Source: a virus. From it: a stretch of DNA of 27,401 bases. The first letter of the stretch is position 1. Each line of letters starts with the position of its first letter. Below are positions 10,242 to 27,229 of this stretch, piece by piece. The translations under genes and the position numbers were made by a program. The notes under the pieces are model-generated. The model searched no databases, had not been told where the DNA came from, and was given only the letters and a program-made list of their open reading frames with translations. The stretch is from IMG/VR virus record IMGVR_UViG_3300025141_013697, positions 1 to 27,401 of that record; one strand, given 5' to 3'.

Positions 10242-10249
10242 TATTTATA
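10242..10249 (-). promoter_or_regulatory. T4-type late promoter, exact consensus
   Basis: The minus strand reads TATAAATA, identical to the T4 late-promoter core, 6 bases before the gp20 ATG and overlapping the TAA stop of the gp15-like gene. Confidence 0.75.
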
Positions 10250-11465: not shown

Positions 11466-11476
11466 GCGTACTTATA

Positions 11477-11484
11477 TATTTATT
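11477..11484 (-). promoter_or_regulatory. T4-type late promoter motif
   Basis: The minus strand reads AATAAATA 11 bases before the gp15-like ATG and overlaps the TAA stop of the helicase gene. The spacing is longer than the usual 5-6 bases in this window. Confidence 0.6.
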
Positions 11485-13120
11485 ACAGAAACCTGTCGAT
11501 GAAATATTTCGGTAACTTATGCTTATTATTTACAACACTTTCTACAACAGCTCCATCTAGTATATAGGTTGTACAATAGTCTTTTTTAGATCTAACACCC
11601 CGGCCACATGACTGAATCACCGAACATAGCATTTTATTCGAATACCAGTTAAAGTCATCTTTCATTAATCTTTCAATCCTCTTATCTTTTGTTGGTAAAT
11701 AAGGCGCTTTAACAATAATTTGAAATCTAGCCAAATTATCTTTTAAATCTACACCACGAGACAAAGAGGGAGACACTAGCACTGTTGGCGCGGGGTTGGC
11801 TAAATGCTGCTCTATTATCATTTCGTTATTAACACCCGGCTCTCTAGCTAGAAATCTCTCATCAGTTAATTGATTTGATAAAAACGACGTTATAGTATTA
11901 TTATGTGTGTGTATAATACCTTTATCATTTTTATGAAATTCACAAATTTGCTTTATTTGTTTTACTATCTTAGGTAAGCTTCGCTTTAAATTATGATAGT
12001 TTAATTTAACTTTTGTTGTGCAGTATATTGGAGCGTTTTTTGCATCAAAAGATGACTCAGCTTCCACATACTTAAATTTATCTATACCTAAGCTCTTACA
12101 AAAATTTGAAGGGTCAATAATTGTAGCTGACATTAATACTACCTTATCAGCATATTTAAATAAGTGGTTAGAAAGCTTGTTTACTTTCAACGGCATAAAT
12201 GTAATACCATCTTTACTAGTTTCAAAAAGATATTCGCTATCATTCCACGTATCAATAATTAATGAAAGCTTTGAGTGGAGGTTCCGTATACCCACTATTT
12301 GTCGTCTTGTTTCAATTAGAAATTTTTTATTATTAGTATTACCACTACTAATAATATCGCGGAGTTGATCTATCTTATCGCTCAGATCTAATAATAAATT
12401 GTTAATCCACTTTATAACATTAGCACTGTTTTTAGAATAGAATGGCCTTACTAATATATCCATTCTTTTTAACATTTCAAAATTAATGTCGCAAGAAAAT
12501 TCTTTAACTAATTGATCTTCTAATTCAGCGGCTTCATCACAAATTAAGAACTGTCTCTTTTTTATATGATTAGGCAACGAAAAGAACATGTTATAATTTA
12601 ACGCTGCAAATTTGTTTATTAGAGCATCTCTACGGTCGTTATGATAGGTGCACTTATGCCTTCTTCTATGATCCTCTAATATATTCTTAGGCATAATCAA
12701 TGATTCTAACTCAACATCAATATTTGAATCAATTGTACTAATGTAGTTACTCTTACCTTTAAGTATAGTTGTATCTTTAAATAGATCTCTATATTGATCT
12801 TGTAGAGCTTTTGTTATAGTAAGTGCAAACGCGCCGGGTGGATCTTCTTCTTCGCACTCTTCTTCGTGTATATATGAACCTGTTTGGTCTATTTTAAATG
12901 CTGTGTAGGATGTTATTAGATCCTTAAAATTGGAAGACGATTCTGTTGAGGCGTTCGCGAGAGTTTTTGATATAAAGCTTTTGCCCGACCCGGTAGGCGC
13001 ATTGCATACTACAAATTTGTAACCGTCGTCGAAAGCTTGATCGATATTTTTTAGTAGCTTTACTTGCGCGGAGTTGGGAGTATACCCTTCTGGAAAAACT
13101 TTTAATAAACCACCTAACAC
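11483..13120 (-). CDS. DinG/XPD-type superfamily 2 DNA helicase
   Basis: A 545-residue helicase with a GTG start. Visible motifs are Walker A APTGSGKS (residues 41-48), Walker B as DEAA (195-198) instead of DEAH, VVLMSAT (327-333), SRGVDL (454-459) and motif VI QSCGRGVRS (503-511). The order and the LKGKSNY element (120-126) place it in the Rad3/XPD/DinG group, which unwinds 5'-3' at DNA ends, forks or D-loops. The usual iron-sulphur ligand after NYx is Ser128 here and only one clear cysteine (Cys157) remains in that insert, so the Fe-S cluster is probably lost. A sigma-70-like promoter ends 5 bases before the GTG, pointing to early expression and a leaderless mRNA. Likely role: replication, recombination or repair; partner unknown. 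Confidence 0.88.
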   Translation of the reverse strand: MLGGLLKVFPEGYTPNSAQVKLLKNIDQAFDDGYKFVVCNAPTGSGKSFISKTLANASTESSSNFKDLITSYTAFKIDQTGSYIHEEECEEEDPPGAFALTITKALQDQYRDLFKDTTILKGKSNYISTIDSNIDVELESLIMPKNILEDHRRRHKCTYHNDRRDALINKFAALNYNMFFSLPNHIKKRQFLICDEAAELEDQLVKEFSCDINFEMLKRMDILVRPFYSKNSANVIKWINNLLLDLSDKIDQLRDIISSGNTNNKKFLIETRRQIVGIRNLHSKLSLIIDTWNDSEYLFETSKDGITFMPLKVNKLSNHLFKYADKVVLMSATIIDPSNFCKSLGIDKFKYVEAESSFDAKNAPIYCTTKVKLNYHNLKRSLPKIVKQIKQICEFHKNDKGIIHTHNNTITSFLSNQLTDERFLAREPGVNNEMIIEQHLANPAPTVLVSPSLSRGVDLKDNLARFQIIVKAPYLPTKDKRIERLMKDDFNWYSNKMLCSVIQSCGRGVRSKKDYCTTYILDGAVVESVVNNKHKLPKYFIDRFL

Positions 13121-13125
13121 ACTTT

Positions 13126-13153
13126 ATTATATTGTGGATTCTTCAGATGGCAA
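13126..13153 (-). promoter_or_regulatory. Sigma-70-like promoter for helicase
   Basis: The minus strand has TTGCCA (13148-13153; 5 of 6 to TTGACA), a 16-base spacer and TATAAT (13126-13131; 6 of 6). Only 5 bases separate the -10 box from the GTG at 13120, so the first transcribed base would lie at or next to the start codon. The promoter is embedded in the end of the upstream gene. Confidence 0.6.
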
Positions 13154-13477
13154 TATATAGACGAGATTATCGTACAGTTTAGATTTTAAGGAACTATCTA
13201 GAAACTTAACCATAGTCATTTGTGGCCTTGGAATAAATGAACTTAGTTGGTAGTTTAATACACCCTTACCTTCTTCATGATGCATTTTAAACGGGTAGGG
13301 TATTTCGTATGACTTTATAGAGTCGTTAAACTCTAAAGTTAAATTTATATAATATTGTTTTATTTGAAAAATTTTAAGCTTTCCTCGCTTTAGAACTTTT
13401 TTATCTGTTCTTATTACTATTTCTTGTAACAAGAATGGTTTTAAAAAATCTGTTACTTTCTCTAAGCTTAGGTTCAT
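13127..13477 (-). CDS. Hypothetical protein upstream of helicase
   Basis: A 116-residue basic protein with alternating charged and aromatic residues (QIKQYYINLTLEF, YEIPYPFKMHHEEG), suggesting a mixed alpha/beta globular fold. I do not recognise the family. It starts by ATGA overlap with the SH3-like gene and its 3' end carries the helicase promoter. Context (co-chaperonin, SH3-like gene, helicase) suggests an early or middle-stage DNA or regulatory protein, with no direct evidence. Confidence 0.65.
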   Translation of the reverse strand: MNLSLEKVTDFLKPFLLQEIVIRTDKKVLKRGKLKIFQIKQYYINLTLEFNDSIKSYEIPYPFKMHHEEGKGVLNYQLSSFIPRPQMTMVKFLDSSLKSKLYDNLVYILPSEESTI

Positions 13478-13851
13478 GAATTCATAAAATTAAATTTTTG
13501 TTTTGCTGACATTGGATATATATTTTCATTAAAATATACCCAAAAATCATCATTAGCGGGGATCTCTTGTATTAAATCGCATTGATTCATATTAATATTT
13601 CTATAATCTTGCATTAATATGTCCCATGCAACGGCTAAGTGATCCGGACCTAAATATGCCTTAGGAGGGCCTTTAGGCGGAAAATAGTTAAGCGAAATTC
13701 TACCATTAATAGAGTTTAGTAAGGATAATGATTTTGTACAAAGCATTCTTCTCGTAGTAGCTTGTCCAGTTTTAATTATTCTACGAGCGAATCTTATTTC
13801 ACAAACATTATCCAACAAGAGAGAATCAAGAGCTGCTTTTTGTATTATCAT
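13474..13851 (-). CDS. Probable SH3-like beta-barrel phage protein
   Basis: From the ATG at 13851 the protein has 125 residues. A TTG at 13872 extends the frame by 7 codons, but a purine-rich AAAGAGAAAG directly precedes the ATG. The pattern of an N-terminal helix, EIRFARRIIKTGQ, MLCTKSLSLLNS, and then AVAWDILMQDYRNINMNQCDLI resembles small SH3-like beta-barrel proteins common in T4-like marine phages (pattern: change of template codes, then VWD, then a Arg/aromatic segment). Their function is not established. It overlaps the gp31-like gene by 26 bases and the next gene by ATGA. The family name is tentative. Confidence 0.5.
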   Translation of the reverse strand: MIIQKAALDSLLLDNVCEIRFARRIIKTGQATTRRMLCTKSLSLLNSINGRISLNYFPPKGPPKAYLGPDHLAVAWDILMQDYRNINMNQCDLIQEIPANDDFWVYFNENIYPMSAKQKFNFMNS

Positions 13852-14257
13852 CTTTCTCTTTACAGATTCCAAACATTCTTTCTTCGTTTAAAAAGATGCC
13901 CTTCTCTACTGTCCCTTTACCTAGTACTGTGGCGCCTGTGATTGTAACACCCATGTTATTTGGGAAGAGAACAATGTCGCCTTCTTTAGCGTACTTTGCT
14001 TTAGGTCCAGCTAGAATAACCCTACCTTTACGCCAGGCCATTGTTATTTGATTAGTGGGAATTAATATTCCGTTTCTTTCAATCGCATCAGTACCGTTAT
14101 TAAAATCTTCTGCTAGATCAACATACTCAATTAATAAAATATCATCAAAAAGGAAAGTTAAATCATAGTCTTGCAGTCCAAAGTCCCCTTTATCGGATTT
14201 TGTTAAGTCGATTAAACTTCTTGTTGGAGCTAAATTATCTATAGATGCCATTGCCAT
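13826..14257 (-). CDS. gp31: GroES-like co-chaperonin, gp31 type
   Basis: From the ATG at 14257 the protein has 143 residues; a TTG at 14272 would add five. After an N-terminal extension of about 35 residues it follows the GroES pattern: LFDDILLIEYVD (36-47), a mobile-loop region ending in NGILIPT (62-68), WRKGRVILAGP (75-85), EGDIVLFPNNMGVTI (92-106) and a final strand FLNEERMFGICKE. In T4, gp31 replaces the host GroES so that GroEL can fold the large gp23 subunit, so this gene probably serves the capsid protein at 3063-4598. T4 gp31 has 111 residues. It is embedded between a sugar epimerase gene (18-base gap) and the SH3-like gene. The chaperonin-family assignment is strong. Confidence 0.88.
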   Translation of the reverse strand: MAMASIDNLAPTRSLIDLTKSDKGDFGLQDYDLTFLFDDILLIEYVDLAEDFNNGTDAIERNGILIPTNQITMAWRKGRVILAGPKAKYAKEGDIVLFPNNMGVTITGATVLGKGTVEKGIFLNEERMFGICKEKDDNTKSSS

Positions 14258-14275
14258 GACTCTATTTAACAAGCT

Positions 14276-15175
14276 CTATGATTTAATCCAACCTTCTAGA
14301 TCAACACTAGGCTTATAATTAAGAAGCTTATTACTTTTTGTTAAATCAGCTAACGTCTCACGTGCCTCACCTGGTCGGTTAGGAATGTACTCTGTCTCGC
14401 CGCCAATAATATCTGCAACATCTAACACGCTGTAATTTTTACCACAACCAACATTAAATACTTCACCTAAAATATCCGGATTGTCGCTGGTGGCTGCTAA
14501 TATATTAGCATTAACTACATCTCCAACATATGTAAAGTCTCTTGCCTGTTTACCGTCACCCACGATAGTCAGAGGCACTCCTTGTTCTTTTTGTTTCTGA
14601 AAAATACCAATAAGAGGTGCGTATTGACCCTTTAAAGGCTGTCGCTCCCCGTAAACATTAAAGTATCTAAAAATAACAGTTTCTACATCGAAGAGATTAA
14701 AATACATCTTACATAAGTCTTCTGCAGCAGCTTTCGAAACAGAATATGGATTAAGACAGTCTCTTGGCATATCTTCTTTTAAGGGGCACTTGTTACTAAG
14801 ACCGTATACAGAAGATGTTGAAGAAAACATAAATCTTTTAACACCATACTCCCTACTTTGTTGCAACATATTACATGTGCCTACAACATTAACGTCACAG
14901 GATTCGATAGGGTTCTTAATAGCAATTGGAATTCGTGAATGAGCTGCTAAATGAAAAACATAATCAGGTTTAAAATCCGCAAATACCTTACTACACTCTC
15001 TTTGATCTGTAATGTTTATTAAGTGATTTTGTGCTTTTTCGTTCCAGTAAAATTGTGCGTTTACTTGTGAACTTTCATTATCAATTACTGCCACTTCGTA
15101 TCCATCAGATAGAAGTTGATCGACTAAATTAGACCCGATAAACCCGGCTCCCCCTGTTACTAGTGCTCTATTCAT
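14276..15175 (-). CDS. NAD-dependent nucleotide-sugar 4-epimerase (GalE/WbpP type)
   Basis: A 299-residue extended short-chain dehydrogenase. Seen: the Rossmann motif TGGAGFIGS (residues 7-15), HLAAHS (75-80), the catalytic SSTSSVYG region (118-125), Tyr144 and Lys148 in NPYSVSK, and RYFNVYGERQ. These are typical of UDP-glucose or UDP-N-acetylglucosamine 4-epimerases, which interconvert gluco- and galacto-configured sugar nucleotides in the cytoplasm. It is slightly shorter than GalE (about 338). The exact substrate cannot be read from sequence. It overlaps the gp62-like gene by 8 bases and precedes the gp31-like gene, in an operon with gmd and fcl, so it probably supplies a hexose or hexosamine for the same glycan. 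Confidence 0.88.
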   Translation of the reverse strand: MNRALVTGGAGFIGSNLVDQLLSDGYEVAVIDNESSQVNAQFYWNEKAQNHLINITDQRECSKVFADFKPDYVFHLAAHSRIPIAIKNPIESCDVNVVGTCNMLQQSREYGVKRFMFSSTSSVYGLSNKCPLKEDMPRDCLNPYSVSKAAAEDLCKMYFNLFDVETVIFRYFNVYGERQPLKGQYAPLIGIFQKQKEQGVPLTIVGDGKQARDFTYVGDVVNANILAATSDNPDILGEVFNVGCGKNYSVLDVADIIGGETEYIPNRPGEARETLADLTKSNKLLNYKPSVDLEGWIKS

Positions 15176-15527
15176 ATTCTTTTATATAGTGTTTGAGTTC
15201 TCTAACGGAAATATTTTTATTTTTTGCAAAAGCAGATAAATCTATTTCTTCTTCCTGTTTCTTTTTTTTCTTAATGTACGTTATTTTTTTCCATTTAAGC
15301 CGTGGTATAAGATGGTAATAAAGTCGATAAGATTGTTGCTTATCATCAAAAATAACGCTAAATTTATTAACTGTTTCGTTTGTAAAAACAGACATATCAT
15401 TATTGTAAAAAGAAAGCCATCTATTAAACAGAAATGGAACAAATGCATCCTCACCTTCCGTGTCTAATTCCCCCGCTTTATCTTTTTTTGAATAAAATAG
15501 TTTATTTTGTAGTTGAAAGAAGTTCAT
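15168..15527 (-). CDS. gp62: Probable clamp-loader small subunit, gp62-like
   Basis: From the ATG at 15527, which overlaps the gmd stop as ATGA, the protein has 119 residues; a TTG start at 15542 is less likely. The pattern FVPFLFNRWLSFY, then VFTNETVNKF, a YRLYYHLIP segment, RLKWKKI and a C-terminal SVREL helix parallels short gp62 proteins of marine T4-like phages (PF.VNR.LS..., NEMN, Y.Y...., KW.K). With gp44, gp62 loads the gp45 sliding clamp for DNA replication and, in T4, for late transcription. It lies between gmd and the epimerase gene, an odd place for a replication gene. The assignment is from remembered family pattern; gp44 and gp45 are not in this window. Confidence 0.55.
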   Translation of the reverse strand: MNFFQLQNKLFYSKKDKAGELDTEGEDAFVPFLFNRWLSFYNNDMSVFTNETVNKFSVIFDDKQQSYRLYYHLIPRLKWKKITYIKKKKKQEEEIDLSAFAKNKNISVRELKHYIKEYE

Positions 15528-16504
15528 AGTTTTTTGTCCCAATATTCAATCATCTCATCAATCATTTGCTCGAAGGTACACTCTGGCGTCCACCCTAAAG
15601 TATTTTTTATTTTCGAACTATCGCCTTTAAGATTGCATAATTCTTCTGGTCGTAAAAATTTTTGATCTGTTTTTACACAATCTTTATTTATTTTAAGCCT
15701 GGAAAATGTGTAATCAACTAGATCTCTTACTGAATGTGATATACCTGTAGCGCATACGAAATCATCCGGCTTGTCGTGTTGTAAAATCATCCACATTGCC
15801 TTAACATAATCCCTAGCATGGCCCCAATCTCTTGTCGCGTCTAAATTACCTAACGCTAATTCATCCTTAATTCCTCTTTTAATTTGAACAGCTGTTTTTA
15901 CAACCTTTGAGGTTACAAAGTTGCTTCCCCTTCTAGGAGACTCATGATTAAACAGGATACCGTTTGCGGCAAATAGGTTATATGACTTACGATAATTCTT
16001 ACATATGTTATAGGAAAAAACTTTAGAGCAACCATATGGAGATACCGGGTTCATAGGTGTTGTTTCTCGTTGATACCCGTCGCTGTCTACACTATTACCG
16101 AACATCTCTGAAGAAGATGCTTGATACATTTTTATTGTAGGATCAATTATCCGGATCGCTTCCAATAAATTTAAAGTACCAACTCCTGTGCTTAATGTAG
16201 TATATATTGGTTGATCGAAGCTAATCCTAACATGGGATTGAGCAGCTAGATTATATACTTCAGTTGGTCTGCTTTTATGAATTGCGGATATTAGCGAAGA
16301 TAGATCACATAAATCTGCATAAAACAAATTGTTCCTTATCTCTTTATATACGTTATCTAACCTAGCAGTCTGATTTTCTGAAACTGAATTACGTTTAATG
16401 GTACCAAATACTTCATACCCTTTATCTAATAAAAATTCCGCTAAGTATGAGCCATCCTGCCCGTTAATACCCGTAATTAATGCTCTATGTCCGTGCGTCT
16501 TCAT
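15524..16504 (-). CDS. gmd: GDP-mannose 4,6-dehydratase
   Basis: The enzyme converts GDP-D-mannose to GDP-4-keto-6-deoxy-D-mannose, the first step to GDP-L-fucose. The ATG at 16504 gives 326 residues; a TTG at 16525 would lengthen it further into the upstream gene. Diagnostic features are TGINGQDGSYLAEFLL (11-26), the NAAQSHV-type segment NLAAQSHVRISF (85-96), the active-site SSSEMFG (130-136) with Glu133, Tyr157 and Lys161 in SPYGCSK, and FNHESPRRGSNFVT and RDWGHARDYV further on. All expected catalytic residues are present and length is near normal (about 340-370). It overlaps fcl by 20 bases and is coupled to the gp62-like gene by ATGA. One of the most certain calls in the window. Confidence 0.96.
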   Translation of the reverse strand: MKTHGHRALITGINGQDGSYLAEFLLDKGYEVFGTIKRNSVSENQTARLDNVYKEIRNNLFYADLCDLSSLISAIHKSRPTEVYNLAAQSHVRISFDQPIYTTLSTGVGTLNLLEAIRIIDPTIKMYQASSSEMFGNSVDSDGYQRETTPMNPVSPYGCSKVFSYNICKNYRKSYNLFAANGILFNHESPRRGSNFVTSKVVKTAVQIKRGIKDELALGNLDATRDWGHARDYVKAMWMILQHDKPDDFVCATGISHSVRDLVDYTFSRLKINKDCVKTDQKFLRPEELCNLKGDSSKIKNTLGWTPECTFEQMIDEMIEYWDKKL

Positions 16505-17390
16505 AGTTCTTATTAAACCATTCAACTGTTTCTTCTAGACCTTCTCTTAAACCTGTAAATTTAAAATCAGTAAATAACTCTCTTACTTTAGAATTATCTG
16601 TTGGCTTTTTATACTGACCATCAGGCTTGTCTGTATTCCAAACAACCTTACCTTCGAATTTAAACACATCTACTAAAATATCAACAACTTCCTTAATAGA
16701 GATTTCTTCACTTGTTGATAGTATTACCGGAGCTGTTCCTTTATATTCATCAAGCAACCTTTCAGTTAATACAGCTACATCTTTAGCAAAAATAAACTCC
16801 CTCAAGGGCTTACCAGTTCCCCATACTTCAAAATCTGTATTATGCTTTTTTGACAAATACATTTTATGTACAAGCATAGGAATTACATGTCCATGTTGTA
16901 AAGAAAAATTATCACCGGGTCCGTAAATGTTTGTTGGAATGACACAAAAATACTCTTTACCGTACTGCTCGTTGATAGTTCTTATTTGAACTTCAGACAT
17001 TCTTTTGGCGTATGCATATCCAAAATTTGATTCATGTGGAGGCCCATCGTGAAGGTACTCTGGCCTTATAGGATATTTTACTACACTAGGAAAAATACAT
17101 GTGGTTAAAAAGCAAGCTAACCTCTTAACATTATTTTTACGACTCTGTTCAATAACGTTAGTGTTAATACTGATATTTTCATAAAAATAATCAGCCTTGT
17201 AGGTCATATTCGAGCCTAAACCACCGACCCTAGCTGCTGTGTGAATAACTCGGTCTGGTTTTACCTTTTCAAAAAGATCTGTTGTTTGACTATTGGATAT
17301 AAGATCGTAATCCTTGGAAGATACTTTAATAAAATCTTTATTAAAATGACTCCCAACTAATCCAGTTCCTCCGGTTACTAGTGTACTCAT
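16485..17390 (-). CDS. fcl: GDP-L-fucose synthase (epimerase/reductase)
   Basis: This 301-residue extended SDR protein completes GDP-L-fucose synthesis by 3,5-epimerisation and NADPH-dependent 4-reduction of the gmd product. Seen: VTGGTGLVGSHF (5-16), HTAARVGGLGSN (50-61), the catalytic TTCIFP segment (96-101; SSCIYP in E. coli), Tyr125 and Lys129 in GYAYAKR, PTNIYGPGDNFSLQHGHVIP, and VWGTGKPLREFIFAKDV. Its length is close to E. coli Fcl (321). It starts by ATGA overlap with the DUF366 gene and overlaps gmd, so the two fucose enzymes are translated together. GDP-fucose is presumably used by the GT11 enzyme encoded at 24305-25114. Confidence 0.95.
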   Translation of the reverse strand: MSTLVTGGTGLVGSHFNKDFIKVSSKDYDLISNSQTTDLFEKVKPDRVIHTAARVGGLGSNMTYKADYFYENISINTNVIEQSRKNNVKRLACFLTTCIFPSVVKYPIRPEYLHDGPPHESNFGYAYAKRMSEVQIRTINEQYGKEYFCVIPTNIYGPGDNFSLQHGHVIPMLVHKMYLSKKHNTDFEVWGTGKPLREFIFAKDVAVLTERLLDEYKGTAPVILSTSEEISIKEVVDILVDVFKFEGKVVWNTDKPDGQYKKPTDNSKVRELFTDFKFTGLREGLEETVEWFNKNYEDART

Positions 17391-17968
17391 ACAATTACTT
17401 TTGTAGTCGCAGTAAATTGATCTCTAACTTCATTATTGAAATAATCTATTACTGCTTCCATAAATTCTTTAGTCGCTTTTTTTGTTAATCCTGAGGAGTA
17501 AGCGAAAGCCGGGGCTTTCTCACCGGCGACAATATTAATACCGGTATGGCCAACAGCGATATTATCTTTTGAGTAGGTAATAGAAACACTTACCTTACCA
17601 GATTGTCTCACTTTATCATCAGCGCCTACAAACTCATCTTGTACAAGGAGATCGTCGCCATCTATTACAATCGGTTTTTGAATAATATTAGATAAAATAT
17701 TAGCTATAGCTGTATTTAACAGCCGTTGAAAGGAAACAGCTCCAAACGGACATAAGTTTGGGATCTCCCAACAGAAATTTATTGCATCCTGACTGTGAAT
17801 AAAATCATTACTTAATGAATCCTCTAAATCAATTAGAGCGTCAGATACATACATTGGGGATCTAAACGCAACAATATTACCGCATGGCGACACTTCTTTT
17901 CGAAAAAACTTATAAGCAAATCTTTCATGAATTAACTTACCGTCATATACGCTTTGTGTAACTATCAT
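17387..17968 (-). CDS. DUF366-family protein
   Basis: A 193-residue protein matching the DUF366 (COG2029-like) pattern: an N-terminal YDGKLI, GNIVAFRSPMYV followed by ALIDLEDS, then HSQDAINFCWEIP, a QRLLNTAIANIL helix, GDDLLVQ, and KVSVSITYSKDNIAVGHTGINI. The family is known mainly from archaea and bacteria and has no established reaction; the last block recalls a substrate- or nucleotide-binding strand-loop, but I cannot assign a function. It is the first gene behind a sigma-70-like promoter and is coupled by ATGA to fcl, so it is co-expressed with GDP-fucose synthesis, gp62-like and gp31-like genes. Its Cys residues are not arranged as a metal site. Confidence 0.65.
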   Translation of the reverse strand: MIVTQSVYDGKLIHERFAYKFFRKEVSPCGNIVAFRSPMYVSDALIDLEDSLSNDFIHSQDAINFCWEIPNLCPFGAVSFQRLLNTAIANILSNIIQKPIVIDGDDLLVQDEFVGADDKVRQSGKVSVSITYSKDNIAVGHTGINIVAGEKAPAFAYSSGLTKKATKEFMEAVIDYFNNEVRDQFTATTKVIV

Positions 17969-18903: not shown

Positions 18904-19578
18904 TTAACAATATAGCGACTCAATAGGTAGAGTTGGCATTAATTCAGTCAATCGACTTTCTTTATTAGCAGTAAAGAACGTGGCATCATTATTAGACACT
19001 ATGTCTTTCCAATTATCAAATGATAGATCTAAAGTATCCATTTCTGAAACATGCCCTCTCCAATCTACATCTTCTTGATATACTTTTGAATCGCAATATA
19101 TCTCACCATCAGTATGTTGTAAGTCGACACCAGCTAAAATTATTTCACTGCAACCAGTAATATAAGCTAGATGCACGGCACATTGCACAGAATCTATTCC
19201 TTGAATAAATTTATCTCTTTTAGTAAGATCATATAGGTTGGAATGATCTCTCTCAAAGAAATATATTTTATCTTTTAATTGCATATGCAAATTTTTAATA
19301 TGTTCATGGTCATAAAAATTTCCCCATGTAGCAACTTTAGATGTTATGTTAACACCATATTCAAAAAAACTATTCTTTGGTACTGCAAAATCAGTCATAC
19401 AAAAATAATCACACTTAGACATAACTGTAACCGATTGGTTACACGCAAAGATGACGTTATCATCTGATACACGACTAAAATCTATATTGTTTAACGAAGG
19501 GGCACTACCACACACTATTGCACGTCTGCCTTTATGTATGTCTTCAATTTCCGATGGATGATTTGGGTGTTTAAACAT
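18904..19578 (-). CDS. DUF115/MptE-like Rossmann protein, possible glycan enzyme
   Basis: A 224-residue protein starting with a helix and then GRRAIVCGSAPSLNNIDF (17-34), the G-x-(G/A)PSL nucleotide-binding motif of the DUF115 (6-hydroxymethylpterin pyrophosphokinase MptE-like) family, and FACNQ (44-48). A second conserved block, GIDSVQCAVHLAYITGCSEI followed by ILAGVDL (127-153), is typical of the same family. Members occur in flagellar and surface-polysaccharide loci near glycosyltransferases. The N-terminal motif also resembles GT42 sialyltransferases (CGNGPSL, CNQ), so a sugar-transfer role is possible but unproved. It sits between a glycosyltransferase and a radical SAM gene in the same operon. 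Confidence 0.65.
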   Translation of the reverse strand: MFKHPNHPSEIEDIHKGRRAIVCGSAPSLNNIDFSRVSDDNVIFACNQSVTVMSKCDYFCMTDFAVPKNSFFEYGVNITSKVATWGNFYDHEHIKNLHMQLKDKIYFFERDHSNLYDLTKRDKFIQGIDSVQCAVHLAYITGCSEIILAGVDLQHTDGEIYCDSKVYQEDVDWRGHVSEMDTLDLSFDNWKDIVSNNDATFFTANKESRLTELMPTLPIESLYC

Positions 19579-19584: not shown

Positions 19585-20520
19585 TTACCATTTGTCTGCG
19601 TGATTTTTTCCAAATAACATTCCGTTAGCGTCACAATTAGAACAAGGAGATAGGCATCGCTTACCATCTTTAAGTTTATCTCTAAAATCTTTTAAACGTT
19701 TATCACGCCAGATATCAAAGATAGGTTTTTCTGCTACATTTCCGAATTTTACTGTTCTATTATACATATCTTGACAACATAATAGAACGTCACCGTTCCA
19801 GTCTATATACATGGCATAATGTGGATAGTAGCACGGTCTTGTTGTAGCCTTTTTAAGTTCCTTTTGTGCACCGGTTCGGTTAGTATAAATTAAACCAAAA
19901 TCTTCATCTTCACTATACCACCGATCACGTAGCGTATACTTAGACTTAACAATTTGACATTCTGTAAATAGGTTATTAAAGTAATCTATTTGTTCTGGTC
20001 CGTCGTACATACTCACTACAAACTGTGAAAGGCCAATAGAGTATAAATCTTTTATAAGCCCGGGTTCTAATTTATCTCCATTTGTTACAATTTCAATATT
20101 AATTTGTCTATCACAAAAGCATTTTATAATTTCGAGGAGATTTCTTGTTAAAAGGGGCTCACCTGTACCACTAATATTTATTATACCAGAAAAATCTAAC
20201 TCATCTAATTGAAATGCTATAGCTGCAGCTAACCCCGGATCCATATGAAGGTTTTGATTAGGATAATCGCCGCTTCTTGGACAGAATGGACATGTACGAT
20301 TACAAAGTTCGTTAAGATTTAACTCCACCCAGCTAAACAACGGTATGTCGCGTACTATCTGTACGTGATCAATTGAAGTTCTCTTTCTATCTATATTTCT
20401 CTTAACACTGTGTGTAATTTGTTTAGAAGAAAAGTCTCTAGGTAACCACTTACGAGTTTCTTCGTCAGCTACACCTGATGGTTTATAGAAAAACCCACTA
20501 TGTTCACACTCGCCGTCCAT
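19585..20520 (-). CDS. Radical SAM protein with SPASM domain
   Basis: A 311-residue enzyme. After about 70 basic N-terminal residues, the iron-sulphur motif Cys73-x3-Cys77-x2-Cys80 is followed by GTGEP (118-122) and TNGDKL, typical of radical SAM barrels that bind S-adenosylmethionine. A C-terminal SPASM-type region has Cys230, Cys248-Cys249, Cys289, Cys293 and Cys296, able to hold an auxiliary cluster. Such proteins modify peptides, sugars or other small molecules and are common in glycan gene clusters; the substrate is unknown. It overlaps the cupin gene by 17 bases and lies downstream of a PLP aminotransferase, suggesting three linked steps. It probably needs low-oxygen or reducing host conditions to work. 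Confidence 0.9.
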   Translation of the reverse strand: MDGECEHSGFFYKPSGVADEETRKWLPRDFSSKQITHSVKRNIDRKRTSIDHVQIVRDIPLFSWVELNLNELCNRTCPFCPRSGDYPNQNLHMDPGLAAAIAFQLDELDFSGIINISGTGEPLLTRNLLEIIKCFCDRQINIEIVTNGDKLEPGLIKDLYSIGLSQFVVSMYDGPEQIDYFNNLFTECQIVKSKYTLRDRWYSEDEDFGLIYTNRTGAQKELKKATTRPCYYPHYAMYIDWNGDVLLCCQDMYNRTVKFGNVAEKPIFDIWRDKRLKDFRDKLKDGKRCLSPCSNCDANGMLFGKNHADKW

Positions 20521-20848
20521 TTGATTCCCGGTTTATATCATTATGATCAAACTCGGCCCAATATAACTCAAAGGCTACACCATCTTTTATACCTTCAAAT
20601 TGATGATATAATCCGGGTTTAACTTGCATAAAATCACCAGCGTTTAAAATTGTCTCATCAACTAGTTCATAGTCGTCATGCCACACCCGAACAACCATTT
20701 GACCACTTTCAACAAAAAACCCATTCCATTTAAATTGATGCTTATGCTTCGAGCACTGTACCTTGGCTTTATATTCAATACGATGAAATTCCAAAACACC
20801 GTTACTGTGAATTAATTCAGTTTGACCCCATATTTTACCGGCTTTCAT
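20504..20848 (-). CDS. Single-domain cupin protein
   Basis: A 114-residue cupin. The first cupin motif appears as His35-x-His37 and Glu47 followed by Gly49, and the second as GDFMQVKPGLYH with His82, so a metal-binding His/His/Glu/His set is present. The small fold resembles the C-terminal domain of bifunctional mannose-6-phosphate isomerase/GDP-mannose pyrophosphorylases and many sugar-binding or sugar-isomerising proteins. The gene is coupled to the aminotransferase (ATGA) and overlaps the radical SAM gene, so it probably binds or isomerises the same intermediate. A role in supplying mannose-type precursors for gmd is possible but not shown. Confidence 0.8.
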   Translation of the reverse strand: MKAGKIWGQTELIHSNGVLEFHRIEYKAKVQCSKHKHQFKWNGFFVESGQMVVRVWHDDYELVDETILNAGDFMQVKPGLYHQFEGIKDGVAFELYWAEFDHNDINRESNGRRV

Positions 20849-21864
20849 AAATTTATTTCTTGTAAGATGATATCTCTTACTTTATCGTTTTGTGTTACAC
20901 TAAAAACTAAATTATTATTATCAACTATACTCGTTATAATTTTTTTAGCGTATAAATTATTATAAGCTTGCTTTATTTTTTTGCTATCGTCTGAATAAAG
21001 TCTCAAGTTAAAGCCCTTTGAATCATAAGCAGTGAATATTTTATTACAAGATAATTCTTTTAACCACTGTTGTTTTTTATCAATAATATTTTCTTTTAAA
21101 CATTTAAAATATTTTTGATGAAGGATTAAAAATTCCAAAGCTTTACAAGAAAAATAATCCAACTCATATGATAATCTTGTTGTTTCAAGCTTTGTTTTAA
21201 GCTTATTATTTGTTGCTAGCCAACCTGTCTTTATTCCTGGAAATCCAATTTTTGAAAAACTTGAAGATATAATTAAATTATTATATTTTTCGAGGTTAGG
21301 TAAAAAGCTTTTATATTCCCACCCTGCATATATTTCATCTAAAAATACTATTACGTTATGTATCCGACTATGTTCAAGTATGGTATGCAATTCTTCATGT
21401 GTGAAGCAATTTGGTAAGTGCATTTTTGGATTATCTAAAAACAACACTTTGATATCAGGGAGTATTTTTATAATATCTTGTATATTAATGTTATAATTAG
21501 GAGATTCACCTTTTACATTAATAACACGAGCACCATACACTTTTGCATAGACATTATACATTGCAAAGGTAGGGGTTAATAACCCTACATTACAATTTTG
21601 TAAGTTTAAAGTTTCAAATACTTGTTTTATTGCACCTTCAACACCTCTTGTTATTAATAAACAATCTTCATCTACGTTAAGATAATCGCTTAAAGCTTTG
21701 TATGATGTTGACATATCTGGGTATTGAAAGAGACCGTCTCCTGAACACGTTTCTAATAAATTATTATATATATAATCTGGATGCTTGTCCATTATCATAT
21801 TTCTATTAAGGTAAGTATAACCGCCCTTAAACTCTTTTCTAACTCTATCAATATTATATACCAT
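20845..21864 (-). CDS. PLP-dependent aminotransferase (HisC/CobD-like)
   Basis: A 339-residue fold-type I aminotransferase. Seen: GDGLFQYPD near residues 42-50, GVEGAIKQVF (74-83), a stacking aromatic in PTFAMYN, Asn145-Pro146, Asp176 and Tyr179 in FLDEIYAGWE, and the PLP-binding Lys205 in SSSFSKIGFPG, with KTGWLA just after. The layout matches histidinol-phosphate aminotransferase and threonine-phosphate decarboxylase relatives. No other histidine or cobalamin genes are present, so a role in modifying a glycan precursor with an amino-acid-like or aminated group is more likely. The gene follows the GT fusion gene by 2 bases and is coupled to the cupin gene. The substrate is unknown. Confidence 0.85.
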   Translation of the reverse strand: MVYNIDRVRKEFKGGYTYLNRNMIMDKHPDYIYNNLLETCSGDGLFQYPDMSTSYKALSDYLNVDEDCLLITRGVEGAIKQVFETLNLQNCNVGLLTPTFAMYNVYAKVYGARVINVKGESPNYNINIQDIIKILPDIKVLFLDNPKMHLPNCFTHEELHTILEHSRIHNVIVFLDEIYAGWEYKSFLPNLEKYNNLIISSSFSKIGFPGIKTGWLATNNKLKTKLETTRLSYELDYFSCKALEFLILHQKYFKCLKENIIDKKQQWLKELSCNKIFTAYDSKGFNLRLYSDDSKKIKQAYNNLYAKKIITSIVDNNNLVFSVTQNDKVRDIILQEINL

Positions 21865-21866: not shown

Positions 21867-23423
21867 TTATTTTTTAATAACACTTTTAAAGTAATTAATT
21901 TTAAGCATGTCGTGCTTTTCGTCTAACTTGGTTATAAGTGATAATTTGGTTTTTAAAAATTTAGTAGTAACATCATTCCAGTCCTCGATAAAAAGGATTG
22001 GTAGATCTTTAAATTGTTCAAAGGCGTGGTGATATTTAACTATCGGTATGCATTTAAGATAAAGACATTCCCATATTCTATGACAATCAATACCGTTTCC
22101 AGGTGGAGAGATACAAAAGACAGATCGTGAAATATAATTTAGGTAATCTTCTTGTAATGTACACGGGGACATTTTAATACCATTTTTTGTAGTAATTTCA
22201 TCTACTTTTAATCTGTCTTCTGCATTTGTATCAATAGAGAAATTTTTATAAACCAAAATATCTTTAAAGGAATTTTCAGATAACTTGCTTAGTAACTTTG
22301 TGTTTCCGTGATCATATTTTTTTCTAGCAATTCCAATAGGTAACGTTACTGCATTATTGCCTATATGATTATTTTGACCATACCAATTTTTAATTTTTTT
22401 ACTATATGGAAAATGTTTTTTATCTATCCCTATATCTGAATTATGAGTAATAAGATCAAACTTAAAATTAATCTTCTCAACATACTCTAAGAATATATCA
22501 ATGTCATGACCGTATACATATATTACACGCGGATGTTGCTCATTAATTTCATTTATGCATTTGAGTGCAAGTTCGGTTTTTGTAGTTTGTAATTTAGGTC
22601 TTCCGTGATCACCGGTTATAAAGTTATCTACATCAAATACATAATCACCTAACTGCTTTATATTATCCCCGGTTATTATTTCATCTTCGTCCCATCTATA
22701 TTTTAAATGATCTTGGCAAAATGTCTTTATGTTAAAGTATGACATAGGAATATCTGTTACAGTACTAGCGCAATCTTTAACATACTCTCTATCATGTATG
22801 AACCATTTATGTTCTTCGTAAGGCCACCAGTTGTTCATTTTTAGGTTTAACGCTACAACTGACATAGCCACCTGATCATGTCGATGGCCATGAACTCTGC
22901 TGTCTACAGAAGCAATATTATTTTCATTTGTATACGGCCCCGGAAATGTTATACCGTCATTAGCTAGCTCTATAACTTCATCTAGGAAGTCTTTACTTCT
23001 TTTAAAATTAAGATTAAGGCCAAATTGTGTTCCTTGCAGACAGGGTGTATTAAATGATTGCTCTCTAGTTATATTAAGAGTATCTAAAGCCCGGTCGTGA
23101 CAATAATCACCTACAGAGTGATGATTTCTTATAAAAAAATATCCCTGCTTTTCTAATGCATCAAATATATCCTCTAAATTATTTTTAATAATTACTGATG
23201 AGTCGGCCCAAAAGATTATATCATATCCGTTCTTTCGACATTCTTCGATGCAGTAAAATTTAAAGGCGAATGGCGACTCTTCATGTGTAGGACACCCTTC
23301 CGGGTATTCAGTAAACGCAAAAAAAGGTATACCGAGAATATTCTTTACATTTTTTTCAAGACGTTCTAATCCTTTTTTAAAATTATGTCCCTTACCGAAA
23401 CTTACTATACATTTTTTAGACAT
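21867..23423 (-). CDS. Two-domain glycosyltransferase (GT-A plus exostosin-like)
   Basis: A 518-residue protein that seems to join two transferases. The N-terminal half (1-240) has a GT-A-like start (KKCIVSFGKGH), a WADSS motif at residues 72-76 in place of DxD, and later HGHRHDQVAMSVVALNL typical of that group. The C-terminal half (about 270-518) has RSVFCISPPGNGIDCHRIWE and CLYLKCIPIV (432-463), the acceptor/donor-site signature of exostosin-like (GT47-type) GT-B enzymes. No membrane segment is seen. It may add two successive sugars, as some bacterial bifunctional polymerases do, or one domain may be inactive. Neighbours are a GT-A gene and the aminotransferase, with gaps of only 2-3 bases. 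Confidence 0.75.
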   Translation of the reverse strand: MSKKCIVSFGKGHNFKKGLERLEKNVKNILGIPFFAFTEYPEGCPTHEESPFAFKFYCIEECRKNGYDIIFWADSSVIIKNNLEDIFDALEKQGYFFIRNHHSVGDYCHDRALDTLNITREQSFNTPCLQGTQFGLNLNFKRSKDFLDEVIELANDGITFPGPYTNENNIASVDSRVHGHRHDQVAMSVVALNLKMNNWWPYEEHKWFIHDREYVKDCASTVTDIPMSYFNIKTFCQDHLKYRWDEDEIITGDNIKQLGDYVFDVDNFITGDHGRPKLQTTKTELALKCINEINEQHPRVIYVYGHDIDIFLEYVEKINFKFDLITHNSDIGIDKKHFPYSKKIKNWYGQNNHIGNNAVTLPIGIARKKYDHGNTKLLSKLSENSFKDILVYKNFSIDTNAEDRLKVDEITTKNGIKMSPCTLQEDYLNYISRSVFCISPPGNGIDCHRIWECLYLKCIPIVKYHHAFEQFKDLPILFIEDWNDVTTKFLKTKLSLITKLDEKHDMLKINYFKSVIKK

Positions 23424-23426
23424 ACT

Positions 23427-24299
23427 CTAATATGATATAAATTTATCTAAATTTTTTCCATGTACGTGGAGATTACTTAGTTTAAATTCCCCGTGTTTGT
23501 TTTTTGCGAAAGGAACTTTAAGATCAAAGTCAAACCAACAAGATAGTTCGTTACGTTTTAATTGTTTACCAATAAAATGTTTTTTATCAATAAAAGGCTC
23601 TCCTGTTCCTCCTGCTTGTGATGATAGTCCGGATATATATTGACCATAGGAAATAGGATCAAAAATAAGACCGGTGTCTGAATCAGGAATTGAAGGGAAG
23701 ACATAATACTTAATAGGGCGCTTCTGGAAGATAAGATATATTATGCCCATTTCATTAGGATGCTTACCTTTTAAATCTAATAAACCATTTAGCTCTTCTT
23801 CTGTATATCTAAATATTGACTTAAAGTCGCCGGCGATTTCTACTAGGTCGTCCGGGGATCTAAAATACGTCATGGCGCAAATAAGCTCATCCTCTAAGGC
23901 TTGTGTGATCGCGATGTTTTTATCATCAGGAATACACTTAACAACGTCTTGTAAGTTATCATAAATTAATACGTCGTTATCAAACGTAAATATATTTTTT
24001 AAATTAAGCTTTCTTGCTAATTCCTCGATGTATAGGAACCTAACTGCACTCGAAAAGAATAGTTCCTTGTGTTCCTTTACAGGATTATTTTGAAAATATT
24101 TAACATCTTCTTGTTGTAGTAACGGTGTCGTTAAAAATTGATTTATATGATATACATTAACACCTTCGGCTCCTTTAACATCCTTATCTGATATTAAGTG
24201 AATAGTAGTTTCAGGAGAATGATGTTTAATTTGTGTAATACAGTCTTTTAAATATTTTGGAAAATCATATAGACTAAATAAAATAACGTTTGTTTCCAT
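23427..24299 (-). CDS. Putative GT-A glycosyltransferase
   Basis: A 290-residue protein with the start METNVILFSLYDFPKYLKDC, a helix-rich region with SSAVRFLYIEELARKL, and a DxD motif Asp107-Asn-Asp109 in FTFDNDVLIYDNL. A C-terminal LHVHGK could supply a metal-binding His. This arrangement is typical of GT8/GT32-like nucleotide-sugar transferases. The donor sugar cannot be read. It is a soluble cytoplasmic protein and lies between the GT11 fucosyltransferase gene and the fusion transferase gene with 3-5 base gaps, so it probably acts on the same growing glycan. Confidence 0.75.
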   Translation of the reverse strand: METNVILFSLYDFPKYLKDCITQIKHHSPETTIHLISDKDVKGAEGVNVYHINQFLTTPLLQQEDVKYFQNNPVKEHKELFFSSAVRFLYIEELARKLNLKNIFTFDNDVLIYDNLQDVVKCIPDDKNIAITQALEDELICAMTYFRSPDDLVEIAGDFKSIFRYTEEELNGLLDLKGKHPNEMGIIYLIFQKRPIKYYVFPSIPDSDTGLIFDPISYGQYISGLSSQAGGTGEPFIDKKHFIGKQLKRNELSCWFDFDLKVPFAKNKHGEFKLSNLHVHGKNLDKFISY

Positions 24300-24304
24300 G
24301 GCTT

Positions 24305-25114
24305 TTATGAAATATATTTAACGCTAGTATTGTTAAAGTCAAAAAATAAATCTTGATCATCCGGAAGTGGTTTTTCCGGCCACATTGCTTTATCACTTGT
24401 TGTGGTGTATGGAAAAATGATTTTTTTATGATAGCCTAAAAATGCCGGCCACCAAGAAAAAGAAGATTGTGATGTCGCTATATTTTCACTATATAGAAGT
24501 GTTTTAAAGTCATCAAGCGCGCTTCTATCTCCACTAACACTAAATTTTGAGACACCGGATGTTACTAATTCACAACCGTCCTCTACTAACCTGCTAACTG
24601 TTTCGTTAGCAGGATCATCAGTTACAATTTTTATTTTTGTAAATCCTGAATCCTGTATTAGGTTTTTGTAAAATTCATAACCTAGAAAAAAGCCTAGGGT
24701 ATTATAATCTGTACCTCTAATATGTAGTACTAGGGAATCTTCATTAATTGGTTCAAGCTTTTTAATGCCAAAAATCTCTCTTAAAAAGTCTTGGTGATCT
24801 ATATAATATTCAGATTTTTGAACCCAAGAATCAATAACAATATCACCGTCAAAGTCTTCTACGGCACTAAAGTCAAAATATTGCTCGCCCATATCTCTAG
24901 ACATAATTGCATTCTTTGAAATTCTAAATACACCCTCTGGAAGTCCAACTCGAAACTTTTCTTCCGGAAGCTTTGGAGCAATACCAAAGTTAGGTAACCC
25001 TTCATTGCAACATAGCTCACAATTATATTTTTTTGCTAATATAACTCCAAAAGCATATTGAAACATTCTATTACCTAGCCTATTATACGGATCATATTTA
25101 ATTATTATTCTCAT
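24305..25114 (-). CDS. GT11 alpha-1,2-fucosyltransferase
   Basis: A 269-residue protein with all main GT11 signatures: GNRMFQYAFG near the N-terminus (14-23), the donor-binding HIRGTDY (131-137) as the HxRxxD motif, VTDDP (164-168), and SQSSFSWWPAFLG near residues 215-227. GT11 enzymes transfer L-fucose from GDP-fucose to galactose or related sugars, usually in alpha-1,2 linkage, in O-antigens and H-type blood-group mimics. Length is normal (about 270-300). The donor can be made by gmd and fcl in the same window. It is coupled by overlap to the asparagine-synthase-like gene upstream. Family assignment is strong; linkage and acceptor are inferred from family behaviour. Confidence 0.92.
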   Translation of the reverse strand: MRIIIKYDPYNRLGNRMFQYAFGVILAKKYNCELCCNEGLPNFGIAPKLPEEKFRVGLPEGVFRISKNAIMSRDMGEQYFDFSAVEDFDGDIVIDSWVQKSEYYIDHQDFLREIFGIKKLEPINEDSLVLHIRGTDYNTLGFFLGYEFYKNLIQDSGFTKIKIVTDDPANETVSRLVEDGCELVTSGVSKFSVSGDRSALDDFKTLLYSENIATSQSSFSWWPAFLGYHKKIIFPYTTTSDKAMWPEKPLPDDQDLFFDFNNTSVKYIS

Positions 25115-26424
25115 GATATTTTTAAATCAAACCCTCTTTTCGCTTCAACGAACGGAAAATTACATTTCGTAAGCATTGAATGAAGAGGAGCTTTATAGTT
25201 TTTATTTTTTAGGTCCACTGTTAGATTAATAAAACTTTGAACTACGTGTTTATCTAAAAAGGGGTACCTAGTTTCTATTCCTACGCTGCCGGCAATGCAT
25301 TCTTCTTTGTTTAAATAACTCCAATTAGCACCATAATAAAAATTACCCCACGGAAAGACGTCTAATAAATTATCAGGCCATATATATGGATTAGGTGTAT
25401 TAAATCCATATGTTTGTATGTTACTCATAACCTCGTCTGCACCTTGACCAGACAACTGTACTTTAACCCCGTGTTTTTCTCTACATTCTTTAAGTAGATG
25501 TAAGAGACCTGTACCGCCTTTATCCTCAAAGCCCTCGTGTGTTTTGTTATTGGGAGTCGGGCCATAGAAAAACGGCTCGACAAAGTCACGTTTAAAGTTG
25601 TTAATATCGATATTTTCTTGAGGTGTAATACCTTCTTTAAGAATTTTCTTACTTATATGATGTACTCTTTTTTCAATTATATCTGGTTCCTCGTTAGCAG
25701 TAAAAGAGTACGTCATAAAGTCAGTTATATTCAGTTCTTTTAAACCGCAGACTATACCACCACTATCATGCCCACTACTTACCGGGACCAGAAAGTCATC
25801 TTTAATACCTGTTACTCTTTTTTTAAGTGCTTTTAAAAAATTTTCTTCCCACAATTCATATGTATCGATGTGTTGATCTAGATTCCATTCATATGTCTGT
25901 CTTTTTTGTGCTTTAAACGTCTTTAAATCAATAATATAAAATGAATTAGGCTCTGCTCGGATTATTTTATCAAAGCCTAGTGACGTAATAGCAGATTTAT
26001 ATGATGATATACAAATATTACTCCCATCTTTACCGATATAAAGAGGCTTTGTTAAAAATAAATCCCCACCAAATATTAACTTATTATTATTAAGGTCTAA
26101 TAAAGCTACAGCAAATTCACCATCAAGGTGCTTAAGGAAATCATCACCATGCTGTTCGTATGCATCTAAAATATAATAACCATCGCTTTTATATTCTTTT
26201 GTCTCGTTTTGAATATTGTAAATCTCACCATTGTATATTAAATGTACATTATTTTTAGACAATGGTTGCGGTGTAAAATCACCGGTAATTGATAACAGAT
26301 TATGGATTAATGTCCAGTTGTCTATTTCTGTCACTGTAGTTTCATCAGGCCCTCGACGCTGTAAATAGAAGTTAGTTTCTTCTACATCAGACACCTTTTT
26401 ATTTGTCATTAATATACTACACAT
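25111..26424 (-). CDS. asnB: Asparagine-synthase-like glutamine amidotransferase
   Basis: A 437-residue two-domain protein. The N-terminal class II glutaminase has Cys2, RRGPDE (23-28), NGEIYN (65-70) and DGEFAVALLD (101-110). The C-terminal synthase domain has the ATP PP-loop as SSGHDSG (216-222) where most AsnB proteins have SGGxDSS, then LSGQGADE (324-331) and GIETRYPFLD. It is shorter than typical AsnB (about 550). It may make asparagine, but within a glycan cluster relatives such as WbpS-type enzymes amidate uronic acids. The altered loop hints at changed substrate use. It overlaps the GT11 gene by 4 bases and the exostosin gene by 8. Family sure, substrate unsure. Confidence 0.85.
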   Translation of the reverse strand: MCSILMTNKKVSDVEETNFYLQRRGPDETTVTEIDNWTLIHNLLSITGDFTPQPLSKNNVHLIYNGEIYNIQNETKEYKSDGYYILDAYEQHGDDFLKHLDGEFAVALLDLNNNKLIFGGDLFLTKPLYIGKDGSNICISSYKSAITSLGFDKIIRAEPNSFYIIDLKTFKAQKRQTYEWNLDQHIDTYELWEENFLKALKKRVTGIKDDFLVPVSSGHDSGGIVCGLKELNITDFMTYSFTANEEPDIIEKRVHHISKKILKEGITPQENIDINNFKRDFVEPFFYGPTPNNKTHEGFEDKGGTGLLHLLKECREKHGVKVQLSGQGADEVMSNIQTYGFNTPNPYIWPDNLLDVFPWGNFYYGANWSYLNKEECIAGSVGIETRYPFLDKHVVQSFINLTVDLKNKNYKAPLHSMLTKCNFPFVEAKRGFDLKIS

Positions 26425-27229
26425 AATTTAATAATATTTTGTATACGTTATAGTTAGATATATTATTCCAGTAATCAATATGTAGTGATTCACTTTGATC
26501 AATATATGTCTCGGGGTTAATATCATAAACTTCATTAACCGTCTTAAGCCTAATTATATGTTTTTCAAACCCATATGGAACTTTTACATCATTAAAAATA
26601 ATTGGCATGCTGCCTACAGCCATTGATTCATATAATCTTATAGTTGACGGGCCAGTTCCTTGCGGACATAAGCTAAGCTTACTGTTAAGTAAAAACTCTT
26701 TAAATTTATCTGAATATTTCTCCCTATCTGTAGATTCCTTTTCGTAAAACCAATTACCGGTGTCTCTGATAATAATATCTTTATCGTTGTTTAAATCAAA
26801 TAACTCTTTACGAATATTATGTGTTGAAGAGCTACCTATAAAACTAGCTTTATATTTTCGTGTACTGTAGTCGATTGCATCTTCTTTGTTAAAGAAACTA
26901 TTATAATGTGGAATACATATCCAATCATCTGAAGAAACTGCATGTGGTGTAAAAACCGTATTATTATAAAAGTTAAGCTTATTAACTAGAATATGTTGAC
27001 ATACAAATTTCTTTTTACATTTATATTTTGCTTCAATATCATTAATTACTCTCTGCACTGCAGGTACACCATACTTATTAATAGTTTGAGCTATTGGTAT
27101 ATTAACGTAGTTAAAATCATCGGGTAGATCTTCAAGATGGTTAAACAAACTCTCTTGAATATTTTGCTCTGTTTTTACAGGGTCGCAATATTCTTCTTTA
27201 GATAATATATCATGATTTATTATTTTCAT
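26417..27229 (-). CDS. Exostosin-like glycosyltransferase
   Basis: A 270-residue protein whose C-terminal part carries KASFIGSSSTHNIRKELFDL (127-146) and LCPQGTGPSTIRLYESMAVG (187-206) followed by MPIIF, the conserved GT47/exostosin-type block with Glu201 at the nucleotide-sugar site. The N-terminal 120 residues are less conserved and contain FVCQHILVN and DDWICIPHY strands of a Rossmann-like half. It has no membrane anchor, so it acts in the cytoplasm like other phage and bacterial exostosin-like enzymes. It starts within an ATGA overlap with the partial upstream gene and overlaps the amidotransferase gene. The sugar transferred is unknown. Confidence 0.82.
   Translation of the reverse strand: MKIINHDILSKEEYCDPVKTEQNIQESLFNHLEDLPDDFNYVNIPIAQTINKYGVPAVQRVINDIEAKYKCKKKFVCQHILVNKLNFYNNTVFTPHAVSSDDWICIPHYNSFFNKEDAIDYSTRKYKASFIGSSSTHNIRKELFDLNNDKDIIIRDTGNWFYEKESTDREKYSDKFKEFLLNSKLSLCPQGTGPSTIRLYESMAVGSMPIIFNDVKVPYGFEKHIIRLKTVNEVYDINPETYIDQSESLHIDYWNNISNYNVYKILLNYV

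Follow-up and report, generated by a model that had tools for sequence, protein, structure and literature searches.

What a phage might make with an aminotransferase, a small cupin and a radical-SAM enzyme encoded by three overlapping genes, and whether the three act together, is the question raised by a locus in the virus record IMGVR_UViG_3300025141_013697. The stretch that was analyzed (27,401 nucleotides; here called the window) makes up a virus record of 27.4 kb and is a fragment. Its virus is marine, T4-like and has a bacterial host; T4-like structural genes were recognized by reading of the translations. The window also carries a glycan cluster, in which dehydratase-like and fucose-synthase-like genes are accompanied by one that is asparagine-synthase-like and several that are glycosyltransferase-like. 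The features under discussion are as follows:

15524..17390, minus strand: GDP-mannose dehydratase-like and GDP-fucose synthase-like genes, assigned by sequence reading
18904..19578, minus strand: MptE-like/GT42 (sialyltransferase CstII-like) protein, 224 aa; outside the span of the first-pass annotation
19585..20520, minus strand: BtrN-like twitch radical-SAM enzyme (rSAM), 311 aa; C73/C77/C80, C230/C248/C293/C296 and Arg215
20504..20848, minus strand: metal-binding small cupin (H35, H37, E47, H82), 114 aa; the CapF cupin is distant kin
20845..21864, minus strand: HisC-like PLP-dependent aminotransferase (AT), 339 aa; Schiff-base Lys205, Asp176 and Tyr179 kept
21867..27229, minus strand: upstream glycan genes (two GT47-like, of which one scored below the cut-off; a putative glycosyltransferase; one GT11-like, just below the cut-off; one asparagine-synthase-like)

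The AT and cupin genes overlap by 4 nt and the cupin and rSAM genes by 17 nt; gaps of only 2 nt and 6 nt separate the AT gene from the upstream glycosyltransferase gene and the rSAM gene from the MptE-like/GT42 gene, respectively. The three ORFs are real and translationally coupled, lying on the minus strand in the one order and at exactly the coordinates given by the first-pass annotation, and their Pfam matches were all above the curated cut-offs (Aminotran_1_2, 86.7 bits; Cupin_2, 29.0; Radical_SAM, 33.3; SPASM, 60.2). The active-site residues named in that annotation were also numbered correctly: Lys205 of the AT, H35/H37/E47/H82 of the cupin and C73xxxC77xxC80 of the rSAM are invariant across aligned close relatives.

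A profile hidden Markov model of 44 rSAM relatives matched BtrN, the 2-deoxy-scyllo-inosamine dehydrogenase of butirosin synthesis (PDB 4M7S/4M7T), over nearly its full length (E 3.3e-47, 164 bits); the next solved structure was reached only at E 5e-8. C16/C20/C23, R152 and C169/C187/C232/C235 of BtrN (residue numbers counted in the printed alignment) align with C73/C77/C80, R215 and C230/C248/C293/C296 of the rSAM, all of which are invariant in 44/44 relatives. R215 falls within an invariant NRxG motif, and its counterpart Arg152 is one that we take to be an important residue of BtrN. The AlphaFold model of the rSAM (pLDDT 84.7) had BtrN as its top Foldseek match (E 5.5e-20; TM-score by target, 0.82). 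The second Foldseek family was SpeY of the spectinomycin pathway (PDB 7WZV/7WZX/7X0B), which bears the PDB name twitch radical SAM dehydrogenase, at ∼20% identity and a lower TM-score.

BtrN and the phage enzyme are 28 to 29% identical in structural alignment, the latter having an extra ∼60 N-terminal residues. BtrN is the only characterized close relative, and at this low identity another radical reaction is possible. The auxiliary cluster of BtrN is bound by four cysteines, whereas that of MoaA has an open site, and BtrN carries out a two-electron oxidation of an alcohol on an aminocyclitol (PMC9012708). With CxxxCxxC, a four-cysteine auxiliary cluster, and homology and fold extending over the full length, the phage rSAM is kin to BtrN, an rSAM alcohol dehydrogenase of the twitch type. 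Its C-terminal cysteines had been read in the first pass as those of a SPASM domain; the four cluster ligands are indeed kept, but the domain is a BtrN-type twitch with one cluster and not a two-cluster SPASM. Because profile, residues and fold all match BtrN, whose reaction is known, oxidation of a carbinol carbon on a sugar-like molecule is the best-supported prediction for its chemistry.

The structures matched best by the AT were those of HisC and CobD, which it resembles in fold and in the PLP-site Lys, Asp and Tyr. It differs in the HisC motif NPNNPTG, which is replaced (NPxxHLxN; NPKMHLPN in the window), and in the canonical arginines: K212 occupies the phosphate Arg position, and V320 or Q the Arg position of LRxxxG. 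The latter loss is common to the phage AT and its relatives in loci L132, L139 and L140. Against the HisC equivalog TIGR01141 (NCBIfam) the AT scored 124.9 bits, where the cut-off is 276.55. Assignment as HisC was ruled out on this score and on the lost residues, and its substrate is likely to be unusual. The retained Lys205, Asp176 and Tyr179, invariant and characteristic of a fold-type I PLP enzyme, argue that the AT is still a working PLP enzyme. With only 19 to 25% identity to the HisC-like ATs linked to bacterial rSAMs, and without the HisC residues, the phage AT could catalyze a different PLP reaction.

Of 50,697 phage records searched at the protein level, 4 matched the AT and 10 the rSAM. 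The AT and the rSAM subfamily (at least 82% identity) were found on an identical set of 8 phage contigs; near-identical copies were present on four contigs and diverged copies on four more, making five lineages when the window's own is counted. In the four further diverged lineages, the module genes recur together at 54 to 90% protein identity. Their order is AT, cupin, Methyltransf_23 protein, rSAM and MptE-like gene in contigs L010 and L011; cupin, methyltransferase, rSAM and MptE-like gene in L013; and cupin, rSAM and MptE-like gene in L012; in the last two, the AT gene lies ∼0.7 kb downstream and is on the opposite strand. Thus, gene order varies but proximity is kept: the distance between AT and rSAM is at most ∼2.4 kb in 5/5 phage lineages, including those with the AT on the other strand. 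When the window is compared with L012/L013, the rSAM (82 to 87% identity) proves more conserved than a core helicase (65%), and the AT and the MptE-like protein stand at 54 to 56% and 43 to 44%, respectively. In the pairs for which dS could be computed, dN was far below dS, which was often near saturation. Recurrence in four further lineages and dN far below dS show that the AT/cupin/rSAM grouping is more than chance and not a random juxtaposition. Across the wider rSAM family in phages, most other members have no AT within reach, and none was seen among the distant phage rSAMs examined (L015 to L035).

The proposal that the three genes form an exact unit did not hold for the cupin. At least 600 viral stretches matched it, and most of the matches listed have neither an AT nor an rSAM nearby; judging from the translations, their usual neighbors are glycosyltransferase-like or replication genes. 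The cupin is common among marine phages and is not specific to the trio. A five-sequence cupin profile had no match in the PDB, and a broader one matched weakly to CapF, a sugar epimerase with a cupin domain. It is perhaps an accessory keto-sugar epimerase or isomerase, or a general glycan-cluster gene. The conserved core is the AT, the rSAM and the GT42/MptE-like gene, with a methyltransferase sometimes added.

In bacteria, a genome scan recovered 47 rSAM loci, among them loci of Nisaea, Paraglaciecola, Prochlorococcus, Sulfurovum and Bradyrhizobium, most of which encode an rSAM 35 to 50% identical to that of the window. A PLP aminotransferase was found no more than three ORFs from the rSAM in 18/38 bacterial loci (10.9 expected when the rSAM position was randomized within the same loci; P = 0.0005) and directly adjacent in 12/38 (3.9 expected). 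In the clade to which the rSAM of the phage module belongs, 14 of 21 bacterial loci had one within three ORFs. A separate search of whole genomes added two Alteromonadales, and in both the rSAM gene was followed directly by a class-III aminotransferase gene. The linked aminotransferase in bacteria is usually class III. This slot is taken by HisC-like relatives of the phage AT in L152, in Prochlorococcus L139, and in Sulfurovum L132 and Bradyrhizobium L162, in both of which the gene overlaps that of the rSAM; L140 carries a HisC-like relative too. The slot filled in Prochlorococcus L139 by a HisC-like enzyme is occupied by class III in the sister loci L136, L141 and L159. At some bacterial loci the rSAM is paired not with an AT but with an SDR or a Gfo/Idh/MocA oxidoreductase, as would be expected of an rSAM whose carbonyl product is aminated or reduced depending on the partner.

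These neighborhoods also bear on the substrate. In 4/4 Prochlorococcus loci (L136, L139, L141 and L159) the pair is followed by KdsB, together with KdsC, KdsA and KdsD, which makes these CMP-Kdo clusters, and KdsB was the sole PF02348 protein found in 3/4 of these genomes, which may be incomplete. Paraglaciecola L130 and L137 and the Nitrosomonadales MAG L135 share the gene order methyltransferase, rSAM, methyltransferase, class-III AT and MptE-like gene, and in L137 the module lies beside flagellin and a Maf glycosyltransferase. A GT29 sialyltransferase domain is encoded beside the rSAM-AT genes of Bradyrhizobium L162 and of phage L014, which has a KdsB-like gene as well. In the window, the protein encoded at 18904 to 19578 matched MptE-like (PF01973; 50.8 bits versus a cut-off of 34.6) and, by profile, CstII (E 3e-6), with a CST-I Pfam score below the cut-off. 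It thus resembles both GT42 CstII and the Maf core; the Maf N-terminal domain (PF20157), present in the Paraglaciecola neighbor, was absent from it by Pfam. The window and Paraglaciecola MptE-like proteins are distant relatives (hhalign probability, 94%). It is probable that the window protein transfers the product of the module.

The reading that we prefer, at a probability of about 0.5, is that the phage module converts a sugar C-OH to C-NH2 by oxidation and then amination; in full, and at the same even odds, this would be a two-step exchange on a carbohydrate followed by transfer. The BtrN-like rSAM, with SAM and two [4Fe-4S] clusters, would abstract first a hydrogen atom and next an electron from the carbinol carbon of a sugar to give, judging from homology, a keto (or aldehydo) sugar. 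From the recurrent genetic pairing, the HisC-like PLP enzyme is expected to transaminate that carbonyl to an amino-deoxy sugar, which in some relatives a SAM methyltransferase (Methyltransf_23) may decorate further. The GT42/MptE-like enzyme would then transfer the sugar, probably from a CMP donor, to a phage-directed glycan or virion protein. That the genes are part of the glycan cluster and possibly specify a new sugar amination, as the first-pass annotation proposed, is the reading that best fits the comparisons.

The alternative that the rSAM is a sugar dehydrogenase or epimerase, that the AT and cupin act in separate reactions and that the overlaps reflect only tight phage packing is unlikely. 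Abutting or overlapping neighbors are frequent elsewhere in the window too, the SDR and Gfo/Idh/MocA partners of some rSAMs would fit an oxidation-reduction epimerization, and the cupin is promiscuous. However, packing does not account for an AT and rSAM kept within ∼2.4 kb in five phage lineages despite a strand change, nor for a bacterial pairing that recurs with two different aminotransferase classes.

It is improbable that the AT instead aminates a nucleotide 4-keto-6-deoxy sugar, for example one made by GDP-mannose dehydratase, the cupin serving as a ketoisomerase and the rSAM as the enzyme that rearranges the product. The presence of the GDP-mannose dehydratase-like and fucose-synthase-like genes in the same cluster and the distant relationship of the cupin to the sugar-epimerase cupin of CapF would suit such a route. 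Keto-sugar aminotransferases, however, are usually of the DegT type, and PF00155 was the sole Pfam family reported for the AT, with no match to DegT_DnrJ_EryC1 (PF01041); DegT-type keto-sugar amination was rejected on this family assignment (Aminotran_1_2, HisC-like). Moreover, a tblastn search with the dehydratase and fucose-synthase genes of the window found no close match in L010 and L011; both contigs keep the AT, cupin and rSAM, and the module is therefore not bound to GDP-fucose. The BtrN-like chemistry would, in any case, already supply the carbonyl.

Modification of a side chain of a tail-fiber or other virion protein by the rSAM-AT pair is more improbable still. In phage S-SCSM2R the pair lies upstream of a long tail fiber gene, in phage L014 two rSAM genes and an AT gene follow a large fiber-like ORF, and twitch/SPASM domains are common among peptide-modifying enzymes. 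Yet no precursor peptide was recognized, the rSAM profile fits BtrN, which acts on an aminocyclitol, far more closely than it fits any peptide maturase, and the bacterial contexts are sugar pathways. Hypermodification of thymidine in DNA, which in some phages combines a PLP enzyme with an rSAM enzyme, is hardly credible here, given that the module genes lie among glycosyltransferases, that their relatives occur in bacterial surface-glycan and flagellin islands, that only 4 AT-matching and 10 rSAM-matching records turned up among the 50,697, and that we know of no thymidine-hypermodifying phage among them.

For the preferred route from hydroxyl to amine, our best guess, a tentative one, is that the host supplies the substrate as Kdo or as a different CMP-activated 3-deoxy-ulosonic acid. 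It is favored by KdsA, KdsB, KdsC and KdsD in Prochlorococcus and by GT29- and GT42-type transferases elsewhere. No CMP-sugar synthetase (PF02348) or NeuB was found in the phage contigs of L003, L010, L011, L012 and L013, so the CMP donor would be needed from the host. The known pair closest in logic is KdnB/KdnA of Shewanella, which converts Kdo to 8-amino-Kdo (Kdo8N) according to a passage in PMC5125639 that cites Gattis 2013. Like the proposed phage route, this pair oxidizes and then transaminates, and it occurs in marine bacteria. In contrast to the rSAM, KdnB belongs to the iron-containing alcohol dehydrogenase family, which is unrelated, and the Kdo link in the phage comes from genome context only. 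No Kdn genes were seen in the window, a fragment, and no Pfam domain of the KdnB-type iron-containing alcohol dehydrogenase was detected among its scanned genes.

The first-pass annotation considered the pathway to be unfamiliar. Related chemistry does exist: in butirosin biosynthesis the partner of BtrN is BtrS, a PLP aminotransferase, and a transamination step follows the BtrN oxidation. What remains distinct are the partners and the setting, since BtrN belongs to an antibiotic cluster, whereas the rSAM here has a phage and bacterial surface-glycan context and an aminotransferase of another family. No 2-deoxystreptamine pathway genes were seen among the genes of the window, itself a fragment. 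To our knowledge, BtrN-like rSAM dehydrogenases are known only from antibiotic pathways. The literature searched yielded no description of a sugar-tailoring module that joins a BtrN-like rSAM to a PLP aminotransferase, of which the phage genes are a member, and no paper on an rSAM with Kdo8N or on an rSAM with an aminotransferase, cupin, phage and glycan. The tie between rSAM and aminotransferase in surface-glycan and flagellin islands and in phages points to an undescribed amino-sugar route. In phages, the module would be a glycan-tailoring function, plausibly for disguise of the virion or host surface.

The gene set was apparently borrowed from bacterial islands for surface and flagellum sugars. 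The rSAM family is rare and horizontally scattered: in four groups that were sampled, ∼1% of the genomes or fewer contained it. In the rSAM tree, the rSAM of the phage trio nests among bacterial sequences and is separate from the remaining phage rSAMs (the clade had support of 88/95, which did not reach the starred threshold), and this nesting is consistent with its capture from bacteria. Flagellin glycosylation dependent on Maf is cytoplasmic (PMC4065374). It is conceivable, albeit doubtful, that phages captured such a cytoplasmic protein-glycosylation module from flagellin islands, that the rSAM and the PLP enzyme turn Kdo or CMP-Kdo of the host (or a nonulosonic sugar) into a new amino sugar, and that the GT42/Maf-like transferase places it directly on a virion protein; if so, Prochlorococcus and Alteromonadales would have, in the pairing of rSAM and aminotransferase, a route to amino-ulosonic acids that has yet to be described.

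The glycan cassette differs between closely related phages. In the window, the glycosyltransferase-like genes GT23427 and GT21867 are separated by 3 nt, whereas ∼800 nt of additional sequence lies between them in the near-identical contigs L002 and L003. A gene was thus recently acquired by, or deleted from, the cassette in one of these phages.

The cupin and the aminotransferase-radical-SAM (rSAM) arrangement were also found in other phages, as follows:

Window, 20504-20848, minus strand: cupin (phrog_7851), also at L037:14956-15327 and L038:12148-12333.
Synechococcus phage S-SCSM2R (L036), 14139-15753: HisC-like aminotransferase gene directly followed by an rSAM/SPASM gene.
Campylobacter phage vB_CjeM_WX1 (L039), 5246-16977: array of rSAM-annotated genes.

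The cupin is highly abundant across marine phage contigs (at least 600 matches), and deposited records name it "cysteine dioxygenase" or "putative nucleotidyltransferase." A long tail fiber gene is located downstream of the S-SCSM2R pair. The vB_CjeM_WX1 array, which also contains an amidinotransferase, a BtrN-labeled protein, and a class I/II aminotransferase, is a further phage rSAM-aminotransferase grouping. Two rSAM genes of the BtrN-like or a related family were located in tandem or near each other in two distant phage loci (L025 and L030) and in L143 and L165.

In four Prochlorococcus single-cell genomes (L136, L139, L141, and L159), genes for a BtrN-like rSAM enzyme and an aminotransferase adjoin clustered KdsA, KdsB, KdsC, and KdsD genes. 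It is possible that these clusters encode an amino-Kdo pathway. Alteromonadales islands L130, L137, and L190 combine a BtrN-like rSAM enzyme, a class III aminotransferase, and an MptE-like protein, the last recognized in L190 by reading. Flagellin is present in the L130 and L137 islands, with the flagellin glycosyltransferase Maf in L137, and L190 has apparent pseudaminic acid genes, again by reading. These islands possibly specify an undescribed flagellin glycan modification.

One further window gene is conserved in the diverged contigs L010 and L011 (78%):

Window, 17387-17968: DUF366 protein (PF04017, 70 bits).

An adjoining 124-amino-acid open reading frame appears clamp-loader-like from its sequence.
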